A stretch of 64,000 nt of DNA, from assembly GCA_034439475.1 (NCBI GenBank), contig JAWXAN010000048.1, positions 62,001-126,000 on the forward strand. The letters are read 5' to 3'. Below are positions 27,627 through 33,054 of this stretch, piece after piece; within the stretch, counting starts at the first letter, position 1, and the number at the start of each line of letters is the position of its first letter. The DNA comes from Candidatus Zixiibacteriota bacterium (GTDB taxonomy: Bacteria > Zixibacteria > MSB-5A5 > GN15 > FEB-12). The translations under genes and the position numbers were made by a program. The notes beneath the pieces were generated by a model. That model searched no databases and was not told the DNA's origin. It saw only the letters and a list, made by a program, of their open reading frames with translations.

Positions 27627-29774
27627 GTGCGTCCAAAAGCTTATGTGCTAAGATTGATATTTGTATGTGTGTGCGGGCTATTGCCTCAATCATCATTCGC
27701 TGTCGATCCGGTTATTGGAGCTGAATGGTCAGGGGACCCGAGGTGGCTTTGGGGAAGAAGTTGGTCCGTAGATCCGTCGACAGGCGCTGGCGAGACTTTT
27801 TTTGGAAGTATCGGTAAAGGAAAGAGTTTTTTCGGAAGCTCGATTTCTGGCGCTCAATATAAACGAGTTGAGATTCGTTTCAATACTGATAGCACATTCT
27901 GTCAAACTTTCAATCGATCAGCAGGATACGCGTCGAATGGAGTTGGAATATTTCCCGGCTCGGCTTGGGACATATCTGATACGCTGAATCCGCGAAGATT
28001 AAACATTTGCTTTGTCGAAGATCCCGCCTTCGCTGTGCCAAATCAGATTTGGGATCCCAATACAACCTCATATGGCAAACGCGAATTTATTTTTATCATG
28101 GCCAGCAATTATGACGGCACAGGATTGACGTATGCCGGCAGAAATATCTACATAGAAGCGAATAGTCTCGATGTTATGTACGCCTGGTGGCCGCGTCTGC
28201 AATATCCTTATACGATGTCGCAGACTCTCCCCGGCACACTCAAAGTATTTGGATATGAACTTCTTGTAGTTCCCGAACAAAATCCCAATGCAATCATGCT
28301 GACTTGGCAGAAAATAGATCCAGCATTTTCGGTTTCGCGCTATCGTATCTATGCGGGAGTGACCTCGCCGCCACCCTTGTTCGACAGCGTCAATGGAAAT
28401 ATAATGTCATTTGCTCATTCCGGATTGACCATTGGACAGTTGTTCTTTTATCAAATTGAAGCGGTCAATTCCAGTGGCGATCCTATCGGATCCAGTCCAA
28501 TAATTCGGGCGCGCGCGGAACTCGGGCTCAATCTTGTAGGCAGGTGGAATGGCCGGCCAAGTTACACTGATATTTGGGGGTACACTGAATCGTCGAGCGG
28601 GAAAGAATATGCTATCATCGGCTCGGGCGGTGGGGTGAGCATTGTCGATATTAACGGGGCTGTGCCGTTTGAAACCGGATTTATGCCGAGCGTGTACTCG
28701 GGCGGGGTGAAGGTATATAAGAATTATGTGGTCACCGGACAGGACGGCGGCCCGGCGCAGATTTATAATATAAGCAATGTAAACAGCCCTGTTTTGGTAA
28801 GCAGTATCCCTCGCGCCGCCCATACAGTCAATGTCTACAAAGACTATCTTTTTCTGCAGGGAGCGTCAAACAGCGCTCTGTATATATACGACATATCCAA
28901 TCCCGCCTCGCCGCAATTTGTCAGCCATTACGTCTCGTTTTATTTTCATGATACGGACATTCGCAATGATACGCTCGCCGGTGCGGGGATCAATGGCCAG
29001 GGAGTCGAGTTTGTCGACATCACAGACATTTATAATCCCGTCCGGATCGGAGGATTTAATTATCCCTTATCGGGAGCCCACAATGTGGAGTTTTCAGCCG
29101 ACGGGAAATACCTCTATGTCGGTGATGAAACAGGAATCGATCCATGGACTCGGATATTCGACATTTCTGATATAAACAATGTGGTGAAACTCTCTGATAT
29201 TATTGTCGATTCGCAGGCGACAGTGCACAATAGTTATCTTAAAGACAGCCTGCTCTACATTGCACACTATACCGAAGGCGTCCGGGTATGGAATGTCAAA
29301 GATCCCGTGAATCCGCTAGAAATTGCTTCGTATGATACGTATCCTCAGGCGGGGTATGGCTATAATGGTTGTTGGACAGTTTACCCGTTTTTTGCTTCGG
29401 GGAAGATTGTGGCCTCGGATAGGTCTACCGGACTGTATGTGTTGAGACTTGGAGATGCACCATTAGATGTTGACGATGGCGACAACGCTCTCCCCCGTTC
29501 GTTTAGTTTGGAGCAGAATTATCCCAATCCGTTTAATCCAACAACCACGATTCAATTTTCGCTGCAGAATCGGTCACACGTGACTTTAGTCGTATATAAC
29601 ACACTTGGTCAGGAAGTGACTACGCTTGTCAATGAAACAAGGTCAGCCGGCATGCATACGGTAGTGTGGAACGGAAAGAATTCAGGCGGGCAGACAGTGT
29701 CGAGCGGGATATATTTTTACCAACTCAGGACCGATGCCGGCTTTGAATCGAAGAAGATGATTTTGTTGAAGTAA
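27627..29774 (+). CDS. Secreted LVIVD-repeat-like protein with fibronectin-like module and C-terminal sorting-type domain
   Basis: 715 residues starting with GTG, with GGGAGGG ahead of it. After a signal peptide (LRLIFVCVCGLLPQSSFA) comes a unique beta-rich region to about 205, a fibronectin-III-like stretch (PNAIMLTWQKIDPAFSVSRYRIYAG near 215), and a seven-bladed-type propeller with LVIVD-like strands (SGGGVSIVDINGAVPFETGF, VVTGQDGGPAQIYNISNVNSP, LFLQGASNSALYIYDISNPASP, GAGINGQGVEFVDITDIYNP). The tail from LEQNYPNPFNPTTTIQFSL to SGIYFYQLRT...KKMILLK is the FlgD-like sorting domain also found on the C25 protease. Likely cell-surface or secreted; ligand unknown. Confidence 0.85.
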   Translation: MRPKAYVLRLIFVCVCGLLPQSSFAVDPVIGAEWSGDPRWLWGRSWSVDPSTGAGETFFGSIGKGKSFFGSSISGAQYKRVEIRFNTDSTFCQTFNRSAGYASNGVGIFPGSAWDISDTLNPRRLNICFVEDPAFAVPNQIWDPNTTSYGKREFIFIMASNYDGTGLTYAGRNIYIEANSLDVMYAWWPRLQYPYTMSQTLPGTLKVFGYELLVVPEQNPNAIMLTWQKIDPAFSVSRYRIYAGVTSPPPLFDSVNGNIMSFAHSGLTIGQLFFYQIEAVNSSGDPIGSSPIIRARAELGLNLVGRWNGRPSYTDIWGYTESSSGKEYAIIGSGGGVSIVDINGAVPFETGFMPSVYSGGVKVYKNYVVTGQDGGPAQIYNISNVNSPVLVSSIPRAAHTVNVYKDYLFLQGASNSALYIYDISNPASPQFVSHYVSFYFHDTDIRNDTLAGAGINGQGVEFVDITDIYNPVRIGGFNYPLSGAHNVEFSADGKYLYVGDETGIDPWTRIFDISDINNVVKLSDIIVDSQATVHNSYLKDSLLYIAHYTEGVRVWNVKDPVNPLEIASYDTYPQAGYGYNGCWTVYPFFASGKIVASDRSTGLYVLRLGDAPLDVDDGDNALPRSFSLEQNYPNPFNPTTTIQFSLQNRSHVTLVVYNTLGQEVTTLVNETRSAGMHTVVWNGKNSGGQTVSSGIYFYQLRTDAGFESKKMILLK

Positions 29775-29868: not shown

Positions 29869-29942
29869 GCGCCCATAGCTCAATTGGATAGAGCATTTGA
29901 CTTCGGATCAAAGGGTTGGGGGTTCAAATCCTCCTGGGCGCA
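29869..29942 (+). tRNA. tRNA-Arg (anticodon TCG)
   Basis: A 74-base cloverleaf: acceptor GCGCCCA pairs with TGGGCGC, D arm TAGCTCAATTGGATAGAGC, anticodon stem TTTGA/TCAAA around the loop CTTCGGA (anticodon TCG, reading CGA), and the T arm with GGTTCAAATCC. The discriminator is A and CCA is not encoded. Its last two bases belong to the left 13-base direct repeat of the adjacent island. Confidence 0.95.
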
Positions 29943-29953
29943 GATGATTTTGT
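29941..29953 (+). repeat. Left direct repeat (attL-like) of the tRNA-Arg island
   Basis: CAGATGATTTTGT, starting with the last two bases of tRNA-Arg. The same 13 bases recur at 31981-31993, and the flanking bases differ on both sides (g/a before, a/c after). The bases just inside the left copy (TTGTAAT) mirror those just inside the right copy (ATTACAA). Confidence 0.8.
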
Positions 29954-30052
29954 AATAAAGGTTTTGTTTGCTGACATAAGCCAAAATTGATTGAAACAAG
30001 ATGAGCGCTAAACACCCACTTGCTGAAGTATGATGAAGAATAAAAGAATTTC

Positions 30053-31885
30053 ATGAAACTCAAGAAATTTAGAATTAAAAATTTTAAGTCAATCACGGAT
30101 AGTGGCGATTGTTACCTAACGGATACAATCACTATTCTTGCTGGAAAAAATGAATCGGGGAAAACATCTATTCTTGAAGCGTTAGAGGATTTTGATACAG
30201 ATATAAAAATTAGAGAAACTGCTAAACCGATTAAATCGCCAAACGAGATACCTGAAATTTCCATAACTTTCACTGTTGAGAAAGATACTATCAAGGAAAT
30301 TCTTACTGAAATAGGTAGCACTCAAAAAGCAGTTGCGGATGTTGAGCTTGAGATTATTAAAACTTTTCCAGATGTCTATACCTTTGGTGAAGCTACCAAG
30401 GGGAACGACCTTTTCGGAATAAAGGAAATTGAGAAAATTAAAAAAACAATCAAAGATAAATGGAGCAAGGTAAAAGCATTACACACTAAATATCCACAGT
30501 TAGCAGGTACTTTTTTTGATTTTGAATTTTCTGATTTGGCAAATAACAAAACTCTCCTCATAGCTTTCAAGGGTGCTACTGCACCGAACATTCCACAAAT
30601 TGACGAAAAGGATCGTGAGGATTTCCAAAAACTTTTAGCAGAAGTTGAAACAGAGATTCAAAATCTTGAAAACCTTGTTGCTACGGAAGATAAGTTTTTC
30701 AAAGCACTAAAACAATGGATTCCGAATTTTGTTTTCTTTAACTCGTTTGAAGATGTTTTCCCAAACAAAATACCCTTTGCGGAGCTTGAAACAAATGAGT
30801 GGATTACGGATTTGTCAGTGATAAGCGATTTGGATGTTCCTACTATTAAAACCGCCACCGCTCGCAATAAGCAAAAACACAAAACTGATATAAATATCAC
30901 TCTCAACGATGATTATAAAAAGTTTTGGACACAAGATGTTTCAAGTTTGAGTGTTGACTGGGATTCTCAAGACCTTCAATTTTGGATTCAAGAGGACGGC
31001 TATCCATATGAACCAAGTTTGCGAAGTAAGGGCAGACAATGGCACCTCGCTTTTTATATAAAAGTGTCCGCACGAGTAAATGAGGATGTTCCAAACATTA
31101 TTTTGATTGACGAACCCGGATTATTCCTCCACGCAAAAGCTCAAAAAGATATTTTAAGTAAACTTGAAGCTTCAGCAAAAAAAGTCCAGTTGATATTTTC
31201 AACACACTCACCATATCTTTTAGAAGCCGACAAACTTAATCAAATTAGATTGATTCATCGTACAAAAAAGGCAGGAACAAAAATAGAAAACAAAGTTCAC
31301 GCTTTGGCGAATAAGGAAACCTTAACCCCTATTATGACCGCGATAGGATTAGAATTAAACGCAGGAATTACAGCGTTAGACAAAGTTAATAATGTTGTGG
31401 TTGAAGGAGCGTCTGATCTTTACTATCTAAATGCGTTTAAGAAAATCCTTAATAAGGACAGGGTGAACTTTATTTTCGGTGGCGGAGCTGGAAATATGCC
31501 TGTTGTTGGGACTATATTGCATGGTTGGGGTGGAAAGGTTATTTATCTTTACGACAACGACCAAGGGAAAAAGGACGGAGAGAAAAATCTGAAAGATAAT
31601 TGGTTAGTTCCGAAAGATTTGGTTCTCGCTGTTTTGAATACCGCAGGAAGTATTGAGGATATTTTCTCGCCGCCTAATTTTCAAGAATTTGTGTTGGAAG
31701 ATACGAGCAAAACTTATACTGAATCTAACTCGGAGTATGTTAAAAAAAGTAAATTAGGTAAAGTTTTGCTCGCCAAGAAATTTTTGGAAACTTGCCAAAA
31801 TGGAACATCAATCAATTTGGATACAAAGTCAAAAGATAATCTGACCAAATTGTTTTTGAACATAGAAGGCAAGTTTAAATCCTAA
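30053..31885 (+). CDS. OLD-family ATP-dependent endonuclease-like protein (AAA ATPase + TOPRIM)
   Basis: 610 residues. The N-terminus is an SMC/Rad50-type ATPase half (KKFRIKNFKSI, Walker A GKNESGKTS at 31-39), a charged, partly coiled-coil central region follows (about 65-330), and the second half has the signature-like SLRSKGRQWH near 320, Walker B IILIDEPGLFLHAKAQ near 349 and the H-loop in FSTHSPYLLEAD near 384. From about 445 there is a TOPRIM domain: VVVEGASDLYYL with the Glu, and YLYDNDQGKKDG near 498 with the Asp pair. This is the layout of OLD nucleases and Gabija GajA. No UvrD-like helicase or other partner is adjacent, so it looks like a stand-alone (class 1 type) OLD protein. A role in phage defence is inferred from family and island context. 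Confidence 0.85.
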   Translation: MKLKKFRIKNFKSITDSGDCYLTDTITILAGKNESGKTSILEALEDFDTDIKIRETAKPIKSPNEIPEISITFTVEKDTIKEILTEIGSTQKAVADVELEIIKTFPDVYTFGEATKGNDLFGIKEIEKIKKTIKDKWSKVKALHTKYPQLAGTFFDFEFSDLANNKTLLIAFKGATAPNIPQIDEKDREDFQKLLAEVETEIQNLENLVATEDKFFKALKQWIPNFVFFNSFEDVFPNKIPFAELETNEWITDLSVISDLDVPTIKTATARNKQKHKTDINITLNDDYKKFWTQDVSSLSVDWDSQDLQFWIQEDGYPYEPSLRSKGRQWHLAFYIKVSARVNEDVPNIILIDEPGLFLHAKAQKDILSKLEASAKKVQLIFSTHSPYLLEADKLNQIRLIHRTKKAGTKIENKVHALANKETLTPIMTAIGLELNAGITALDKVNNVVVEGASDLYYLNAFKKILNKDRVNFIFGGGAGNMPVVGTILHGWGGKVIYLYDNDQGKKDGEKNLKDNWLVPKDLVLAVLNTAGSIEDIFSPPNFQEFVLEDTSKTYTESNSEYVKKSKLGKVLLAKKFLETCQNGTSINLDTKSKDNLTKLFLNIEGKFKS

Positions 31886-31980
31886 CCCCGTCCCCAATTC
31901 GCCAAAAGAAAACAGCGGAGCAAGCGGAGGACGCAAGGTATTCTTCTCAATAAAAGTTCGAGCAAAGTGTATAATTACAA

Positions 31981-31993
31981 CAGATGATTTTGT
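31981..31993 (+). repeat. Right direct repeat (attR-like) of the tRNA-Arg island
   Basis: CAGATGATTTTGT, identical to the copy at 29941-29953, followed by CTCCCAGACCC, host-like sequence leading to the 3' end of rluD. Preceded by ATTACAA, the mirror of the TTGTAAT that follows the left copy's core. Confidence 0.8.
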
Positions 31994-32046: not shown

Positions 32047-33054
32047 CTATCTCCCTTCGGTTTTCAGAATCTCCAACACGGTCGCGAAATCCTCCGGCAG
32101 TGGCGCTTCAAACACAAGCGGCTTCTTTGTAACCGGATGGTCGAACTCAAGTCGTCCGGCATGCAAGGCCTGATGGCTGATCACTCCCAACAACTTTTTG
32201 GCATGCGGGCGTTCAGGCGCAAATATCCCCCGGTGCCATTTTTCCCGCCCCCCATACTCAAAATCTCCAAGCACCGGATGATTCAGATGCGATAAGTGCA
32301 CACGAATCTGGTGGGTTCTTCCCGTCTCAAGACGGACTTCGAGATAATCATACAGCCGAAACCTATCGAGCACTTTATAATGGGTCACTGACTCGCGCCC
32401 GCTGGTCTTGGTGACAATCATGAGCGTGCGGTCTTTATGCGAGCGGGCGATAGGCAGATCGATTGTGCCCTCGTCGTCGGGAAAATGTCCGCAGGTCACA
32501 GCGGAATAAATTCGTTTGACATCGCGCCGGGCGATGGCCTGCTGGAGATTCTGGGCAATCTGTTCGTTTTTGGCCACCAAAAGCAGTCCCGAAGTATCCT
32601 TGTCGAGACGGTGGACTATCCCGGGGCGGGCGTCCTCAGCGCTTATGATGACACCGCGCGGCAAGGATTCGATATGGTAAAGCAGGGCGTTCACGAGTGT
32701 GCCTGTGAAATTACCGGCGCCGGGATGGGTTACCATACCCGATGGTTTATTTACAACAACGATATGCTCGTCTTCGTAGATTATTGAAAGCGGGATATTT
32801 TCAGCTATGAGAGTCGACACTGGTTCCGGCGGGCGCACATACGTTATCTCTTCGCCGCCAAACAATTGCTGTTTGCCGATTGCCGGTTTGCCATTGACGA
32901 GAAGATTGCCGTCGTTGATGAGAGACATTGCTTTGGTGCGTGAAAGCTCAAGATCTTCGCGCTGGCCGAGATATTTGTCGAGACGGATTGGCGCCTCGAG
33001 CGGCTCAACGACTATTTTCTTCCATTCGCCATTTTCGGCTGTGGGCTCGGTCAT
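32047..33054 (-). CDS. rluD: RluA/RluD-family 23S rRNA pseudouridine synthase
   Basis: 335 residues: an N-terminal S4-like RNA-binding domain (LDKYLGQREDLELSRTKAMSLINDGNLLVNG, about 23-55) and the catalytic domain with PSGMVTHPG near 103, the active Asp in GIVHRLDKDTSGLL near 145 and RTHQIRVHLSHLNHPVLGD near 245. The S4 domain and length match RluD, but the exact target cannot be told from sequence. It is the last gene of the run starting at ftsE, and ends 54 bases from the island's right repeat. Confidence 0.92.
   Translation of the reverse strand: MTEPTAENGEWKKIVVEPLEAPIRLDKYLGQREDLELSRTKAMSLINDGNLLVNGKPAIGKQQLFGGEEITYVRPPEPVSTLIAENIPLSIIYEDEHIVVVNKPSGMVTHPGAGNFTGTLVNALLYHIESLPRGVIISAEDARPGIVHRLDKDTSGLLLVAKNEQIAQNLQQAIARRDVKRIYSAVTCGHFPDDEGTIDLPIARSHKDRTLMIVTKTSGRESVTHYKVLDRFRLYDYLEVRLETGRTHQIRVHLSHLNHPVLGDFEYGGREKWHRGIFAPERPHAKKLLGVISHQALHAGRLEFDHPVTKKPLVFEAPLPEDFATVLEILKTEGR

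Follow-up and report, generated by a model that had tools for sequence, protein, structure and literature searches.

A single-gene island at tRNA-Arg of a Zixiibacteriota bacterium that looks like a recombinase-less piece of a Patescibacteria LSR element

In this study, we found that an island of one OLD gene, inserted at the 3' end of a tRNA-Arg(TCG) gene in a Candidatus Zixiibacteriota bacterium, looks like a recombinase-less piece of a Patescibacteria (CPR) mobile element, of a kind driven by large serine recombinases (LSRs), that crossed phyla. Patescibacteria are believed to depend on other bacteria on which they live, and gene passage between them and unrelated cells has mostly been inferred from trees. 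Here, the transferred OLD gene still bears a conserved mobile-element end, the motif P, and it sits at the tRNA that is used in CPR by an element of the same P subtype. The P end and the tRNA target name a candidate enzyme class and target, which can be tested directly. The names P and P' are given here by analogy with known LSR att sites.

Results

The island and its target site

The window is the whole stretch of 64,000 nt analysed here, positions 62,001-126,000 of the forward strand of contig JAWXAN010000048.1 (133 kb) in assembly GCA_034439475.1 (82 contigs, 2.66 Mb). The host genome was examined via searches and via stretches around its tRNA genes. The insertion target, tRNA-Arg(TCG) (29869-29942, plus strand; ARAGORN, Rfam RF00005), ends in GGGCGCA, and CCA is not encoded. 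As the sequence-only reading had stated, the attL-like 13-bp direct repeat CAGATGATTTTGT (29941-29953, plus strand) opens with the final two bases of this tRNA. The attR-like copy lies at 31981-31993 (plus strand), and these two copies, both bracketing the island, are the only ones in the 2.66 Mb genome. The AT-rich insert described between them was also found, with about 2.0 kb, one long intact ORF and 35.8% GC compared to 47-52% in the flanks. It consists of a 99-bp left end, the gene of a 610-aa OLD-family ATPase-Toprim protein (30053-31885, plus strand) and a right flank that holds two CPR sequences. The chromosome continues on the right with an rluD-type pseudouridine synthase gene (32047-33054, minus strand).

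On the 133-kb contig, no tyrosine or serine recombinase was found, consistent with the earlier claim, and a search of it with PF00589 (tyrosine recombinase) gave no match, with neither a gene nor a remnant inside the island. The island has kept att-type repeats without a recombinase or transfer gene. When its ends are joined, they read ATTACAA-CAGATGATT-TTGTAAT, as claimed; the circle-junction sequence is ATTACAACAGATGATTTTGTAAT, and the sequence expected of the empty site is GGGCGCAGATGATTTTGTCTCCCAG. The CTGGG...CCCAG symmetry proposed for the restored site is off-centre relative to the core and carries no weight. A search of viral contigs with the OLD protein and the exact circle junction gave no match, no arm-type repeat above 8 bp was found between the two island ends, and a promoter and terminator scan of the island showed no excess over shuffles.

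An uninterrupted site, which the same reading had proposed to look for in relatives, was present in a genome of the same family (G014). There, tRNA-Arg(TCG) lies directly before the 3' end of rluD, 35 bp from the matched part of that gene, in the same order as in the window minus the island. The tRNA trailer of this relative has ATTTTGT in common with both 13-bp repeats. It fits the left repeat with p 0.002 and the right one with p 0.15, but outside the common bases the fit is not significant for either repeat. The upstream secretion-tail gene ends in a 12-base near-copy of the repeat (29754-29766; codons for KKMILLK), which is probably unrelated.

In simulations, a 13-bp repeat of a tRNA-end-like target was found within 3 kb at about 0.1-0.5% of random sites. 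A caveat on repeat specificity is the 11-mer GATGATTTTGT, which occurs 10 times in the genome, four of them on the island's contig. The search proposed by the sequence-only reading, for the 13-mer or the ATTACAA/TTGTAAT pair elsewhere in the host genome, gave no further copy. As a control, 47 other tRNA predictions of the host genome were scanned. Most had no repeat of at least 11 bp, and island-type repeats were found at only three, namely tRNA-Met (48 and 40 bp), tRNA-Leu(CAG) (18 bp) and tRNA-Asp (31 bp, one mismatch, at a distance of 29 kb). A further long match was explained by a tandem pair of tRNA-Ser genes.

Other islands in the host and its relatives

The tRNA-Met site (L129, 9902-16530; host contig C76) is followed by two tandem segments, set off by the 48- and 40-bp tRNA repeats, without a recombinase. 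The first segment (5.35 kb) carries AbiEi/AbiEii genes, an epimerase gene and three copies of CTAACAGTTTGCTAACAGAAT, and the second (1.16 kb) carries one gene. The tRNA-Leu(CAG) island (L153, 6160-12153; host contig C56), with its 18-bp repeat, encodes an integrase of which just the SAM-like N-terminal domain is left, along with an HNH nuclease and a large protein of the RNase H/AAA helicase type. The 29-kb defence-type island at tRNA-Asp (L159, 3387-20000, and L209; host contig C78) has an LSR gene whose frame terminates within the tRNA, an adjoining tyrosine recombinase gene and a large restriction-type methylase gene.

In two genomes of the same phylum, tRNA-Arg(ACG) is the site of islands that measure 4.7 kb (L191 in G127) and 3.1 kb (L192 in G132), with repeats of 47 and 84 bp, respectively. 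Both encode an XerD-like integrase together with an AbrB-type gene and a single cargo gene. On host contig C55 (L036), tRNA-Pro is followed by an integrase of similar type that is interrupted by a stop codon. In two other genomes (L193 in G022 and L194 in G035), two complete copies of tRNA-Arg(ACG) stand 1.7-2.1 kb apart with one or two genes and no recombinase between them.

The OLD gene and its origin

The island protein has an ABC ATPase followed by a Toprim domain in one chain, and the island holds no UvrD-type partner gene. Its motifs are Walker A GKNESGKT, the RSxGxxW signature, Walker B IILIDEP, the STHSP loop and Toprim E451 with YDND; the catalytic residues of the OLD family are conserved. 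An AlphaFold2 model (pLDDT 85) matched the fold of GajA and of the T. scotoductus OLD nuclease. Judged by family and predicted fold, the cargo is most likely a stand-alone OLD-type anti-phage ATPase-nuclease.

The three closest relatives of the protein in the genome collections, with 87, 80 and 76% identity, all belong to Patescibacteria, and the island protein clustered with these three in a tree (support 100/99). Homologs with 36-61% identity were found in six further genomes among 384 sampled from the class of G135. In the host phylum (133 genomes), the best match had 28% identity over most of the length and the others were short ATPase stretches, and phage homologs had no more than 29% identity, covering only part of the protein. 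The codon-usage distance of the OLD gene was 0.187 to the host and 0.091 to the CPR contig L138; host genes longer than 900 nt in the window had a maximum of 0.156, below the value of the OLD gene. Compared with the closest CPR copy (L097; 84% nucleotide identity), dN was 0.07 and dS 0.86. The resulting dN/dS near 0.08 indicates that the protein has been under constraint. The nucleotide homology to L097 begins 12 bp before the start codon and ends near the stop codon, and therefore the gene itself is the shared part. On this sequence evidence, the OLD gene is foreign to the host and comes from Patescibacteria.

In CPR, the 87% homolog (L138) is on the cargo side of an LSR gene, and at two other OLD loci (L131 and L133) an LSR lies about 2 kb away. 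In Sungbacteria (L099, 76%), a P motif was detected about 240 bp behind the OLD gene (profile E=2e-4). The direct repeats around OLD in CPR loci were only short AT-rich ones. A general position of CPR OLD genes behind tRNA genes was rejected, as only G429 has a tRNA gene just upstream, without a repeat. In Nomurabacteria (L098, 55-1230), OLD overlaps by 4 bp a gene for a 391-aa protein, which has no match in PADLOC and may be a restriction nuclease that partners OLD.

The right end of the island

When the right flank of the island was compared with 384 CPR genomes, two blocks of it matched strongly and repeatedly, first block A (31896-31931, plus strand) and then P (31941-31979, plus strand; ..GTTCGAGCAAAGTGTATAATTACA). 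Matches were found in 36 of the 384 genomes at E<=1e-4 and in 108 at a loose E<=0.1. A P profile was built from 14 CPR copies with the window left out. This profile detected 31941-31979 at E 2.1e-8, whereas the next best match in the host sample had an E of about 1, and the sampled host DNA held no second copy of note.

The 39-bp P motif, which forms the outer end of the cargo modules in CPR LSR elements, stops one base short of the right repeat. In CPR it terminates in GTGTATAATTACAG, and most copies continue with CACCA or CA; in the island it ends in GTGTATAATTACAA, followed directly by the CAGATG... repeat. In the window and CPR alike, P joins the core next to C72-A73 of the tRNA. Pairs of P or block A on the same contig, 2-6 kb apart, were inverted and faced outward in six of six cases. 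P contains TATAAT and precedes genes and a tRNA at some CPR loci, which allows an additional use as a promoter. The outward pairs, the exact repeat boundaries and the LSR linkage nevertheless speak for an element end, and the view that P is merely a CPR promoter was rejected.

LSR elements of Patescibacteria

We examined LSR elements and P loci (L221-L226, L138 and L239-L243) in the CPR genomes G208, G356, G169, G224, G147, G438 and G133. Their cargo modules are bounded by inverted repeats of 90-350 bp with 84-100% identity that include P. Five modules with such ends adjoin an LSR gene that reaches the 3' end of a tRNA, and a sixth LSR, which G133 carries on the contig that also bears the closest relative of the OLD gene, ends at tRNA-Ala. 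The six LSR genes run into or up to the 3' ends of tRNA-Leu(TAA), Gly(GCC), Ser(CGA), Ala(TGC) (twice) and Arg(TCG). The element of G356 is inserted at tRNA-Arg(TCG), the same target as that of the island.

In all six elements, an inverted repeat of 91-133 bp, P', starts 3-5 bases ahead of the tRNA end and has its second copy beyond the LSR gene. The cargo repeat P begins 1642-1699 bases behind the tRNA in each of the five elements with both cargo ends. Read from the tRNA, the parts of these elements are arranged as tRNA / core / P' - LSR gene - inverted (P'-core-P) - cargo - P / core / chromosome. The boundaries are thus B-core-P' at the tRNA end, P-core-P' inside the element and P-core-B' at the far end; by the logic of serine integrases, the internal boundary is a complete attP. 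The attL and attR of these elements have only 3-6 bp in common, and the ends of the modules show no target duplication.

Type II methyltransferases, a Z1-domain helicase and large unknown proteins were among the cargo, and cargo modules can be stacked, as in L221; in G208, stacked modules were seen with no LSR in reach. The P subtype tracks the recombinase: the Arg(TCG) and Leu elements have LSRs that are 89% identical and carry the same P subtype as the window, and the Ala, Gly and Ser elements carry other subtypes. In G135, which also has the 76% OLD homolog, a decayed 1.1-kb mini-element with an N-terminal LSR fragment and a P motif lies behind tRNA-Arg(GCG) (L246, 6879-8062).

The elements apparently form an undescribed family; a full-text literature search of incomplete coverage, counted as absence of evidence, found no account of tRNA-targeting two-module LSR elements in Patescibacteria. 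We tentatively suggest, at somewhat less than even chances, that they combine an LSR module with exchangeable, stackable cargo that is separable from the recombinase, and that an OLD gene was exported from them across phyla. A fixed 1.65-kb recombinase module would lie within inverted P' arms, and cargo, often restriction or other defence genes, would be interchangeable within inverted P arms, the two being linked by the internal P-core-P' site. An excised circle would then hold two identical attP sites, and insertion by either would set the recombinase beside the tRNA. Cargo could depart without the recombinase, and the island would be one OLD gene exported to tRNA-Arg(TCG). The plan is regular in six of six CPR elements, some of which carry restriction-type genes. 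If it holds, it would represent a mobile, modular cargo system for streamlined genomes. The LSRs specific for tRNA 3' ends, each with its own short site, may then serve as genome-insertion tools. A two-module plan of the LSR element at the host tRNA-Asp was rejected, as it has no inverted arms.

Discussion

The island combines the CPR affinity of its OLD gene and P at its exact right end with a tRNA-Arg(TCG) target that is common to a CPR element, and it has no recombinase. Because the cargo gene, the outer P end, the core at C72-A73 and the tRNA of the P-matched element agree, the island is probably a derivative of the CPR family of LSR elements at tRNA 3' ends, without the LSR module. An LSR of this family would have made the insertion at the host tRNA-Arg(TCG), and the 1.65-kb LSR module would have been lost during or after the transfer between phyla. 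Loss of the module is slightly favoured over action in trans from elsewhere. The island has the outer P arm at the boundary between cargo and chromosome, and the insertion is at a tRNA 3' end beside C72-A73. The 1.65-kb LSR module with inverted P' is missing, and the island is therefore at most a derivative and not a complete member of the family.

The left end (29954-30052; 33% GC) is unlike either arm type of the CPR elements. Its alignments with P and P' gave p 0.34 and 0.36, and a diverged P or P' was rejected on this basis. There is no inverted repeat across the island, and thus no inverted P on both sides of the cargo. The left end lacks both the P' expected if the LSR gene alone had been lost and the inverted P expected if the cargo had been inserted alone. 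The direct repeat is 13 bp long, compared to 3-6 bp in the CPR elements, and 11 of its 13 bases lie beyond the tRNA. The trailer of the relative fits the left repeat better than the right one, contrary to the prediction of the simple scheme. Both the left end and the 13-bp repeat would be explained by a secondary event at the left end or by capture of a piece of CPR DNA that had been cut at P, and P could have arrived passively with such a fragment.

A special case of the derivative reading is that a stand-alone cargo module circularised from P to P and was inserted by an LSR in trans, as a recombinase-less cassette. Cargo modules of CPR have inverted P brackets and can stack (L221), the island consists of cargo and P only, and the host owns an intact LSR at tRNA-Asp. 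However, a cargo-only module predicts P at both ends and the left end has none, and the host LSR is only 28-33% identical to the CPR LSRs and belongs to an element without inverted arms. We regard this course as unlikely and rank it below loss of the LSR module.

The unrelated left end would also agree with an uptake of CPR DNA that illegitimate or microhomology recombination then linked to the tRNA, or with a transposon-like unit, since the sequence is equally readable as 7-bp terminal inverted repeats, TTGTAAT/ATTACAA, with a 9-bp target duplication of CAGATGATT. These possibilities leave unexplained the coincidence of P, a tRNA 3' end and the same tRNA-Arg(TCG) target. Moreover, there is no transposase, and the CPR modules lack a target duplication at their ends. 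We therefore consider such an origin improbable.

The sequence-only reading had assigned the island to a tyrosine integrase that either acted in trans or has since been lost, with ATTACAA-CAGATGATT-TTGTAAT as its core site. The perfect 7-bp inverted repeat about a 9-bp core argues for this assignment; in simulations, a junction inverted repeat of at least 7 bp arose in about 1% by chance, a figure judged after the fact. A repeat of 13 bp is also a better match for a strand-exchange core than one of 3-6 bp, as in the CPR elements. Islands at tRNA genes with tyrosine integrases exist in the same genome (Leu(CAG), with a truncated integrase), and XerD-like integrases are found behind tRNA-Arg(ACG) in G127 and G132 of the same phylum. 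In contrast, the repeats at tRNA-Met and at tRNA-Arg(ACG) of the relatives are almost wholly inside the tRNA, whereas that of the island starts at its last two bases. The host genome contains no other ATTACAA-N5-14-TTGTAAT site. The class assignment is not supported by the right end, where the arm is the conserved P motif of CPR elements whose enzyme is an LSR, and a tyrosine integrase is an improbable agent.

A false placement of a CPR segment by assembly or binning, which a CPR-like gene in an 82-contig assembly might suggest, is hardly credible, because both junctions lie on a short direct repeat at a tRNA 3' end within a 133-kb contig, the right end falls exactly at P, points that a chimera would not pick, and the closest known CPR copy has just 84% nucleotide identity.

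Comparison with known systems

The class 1 stand-alone OLD proteins resemble the island protein in domain order, in the Walker and Toprim motifs and in the fold of T. scotoductus OLD and GajA. The island protein differs in belonging to a separate, mainly CPR clade and is 40% identical to a Lactococcus plasmid protein. Frequent gene exchange and a high density of defence systems have been reported for groundwater Patescibacteria (PMC12455944, PMC12259885).

Tyrosine-integrase islands share the 3' end of a tRNA as target and flanking direct repeats with the island, whose repeat, unlike theirs, is almost wholly outside the tRNA and which has the end motif of LSR elements. Integron gene cassettes and CALINs (PMC11389934) are likewise single-gene cargo separable from the recombinase, but the island is linked to an LSR and not to an integron integrase and is inserted at a tRNA. 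Inspection of 31886-31980 by eye, without a scoring model, showed no R'/R'' pair of an attC site.

The sequence-only reading regarded an att-bracketed island without an integrase as unusual, which is wrong in general. Among the ssrA islands of Dehalococcoides, 15 of 31 have no integration module (PMC3146451), and cis-mobilizable elements (CIMEs) are a named class (PMC5704250). The Dehalococcoides islands, which use the DsiB LSR, are similar to the CPR elements in their tRNA-like 3' target, short direct repeats and an LSR by attL. They differ in that the target is a tmRNA and the repeat has 20 bp; an inverted two-module plan of P and P' is not described for them, nor is a single-gene copy across phyla (PMC3146451). 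CIMEs resemble the island in that their cargo, flanked by attL and attR, comes without genes for integration or transfer, but they stem from ICEs or IMEs and are moved by accretion beside an active element, whereas the island has no tandem partner (PMC5704250). Integrase-less islands bracketed by att sites are thus already known, and what is new here is the 39-bp P motif at the right end of the island.
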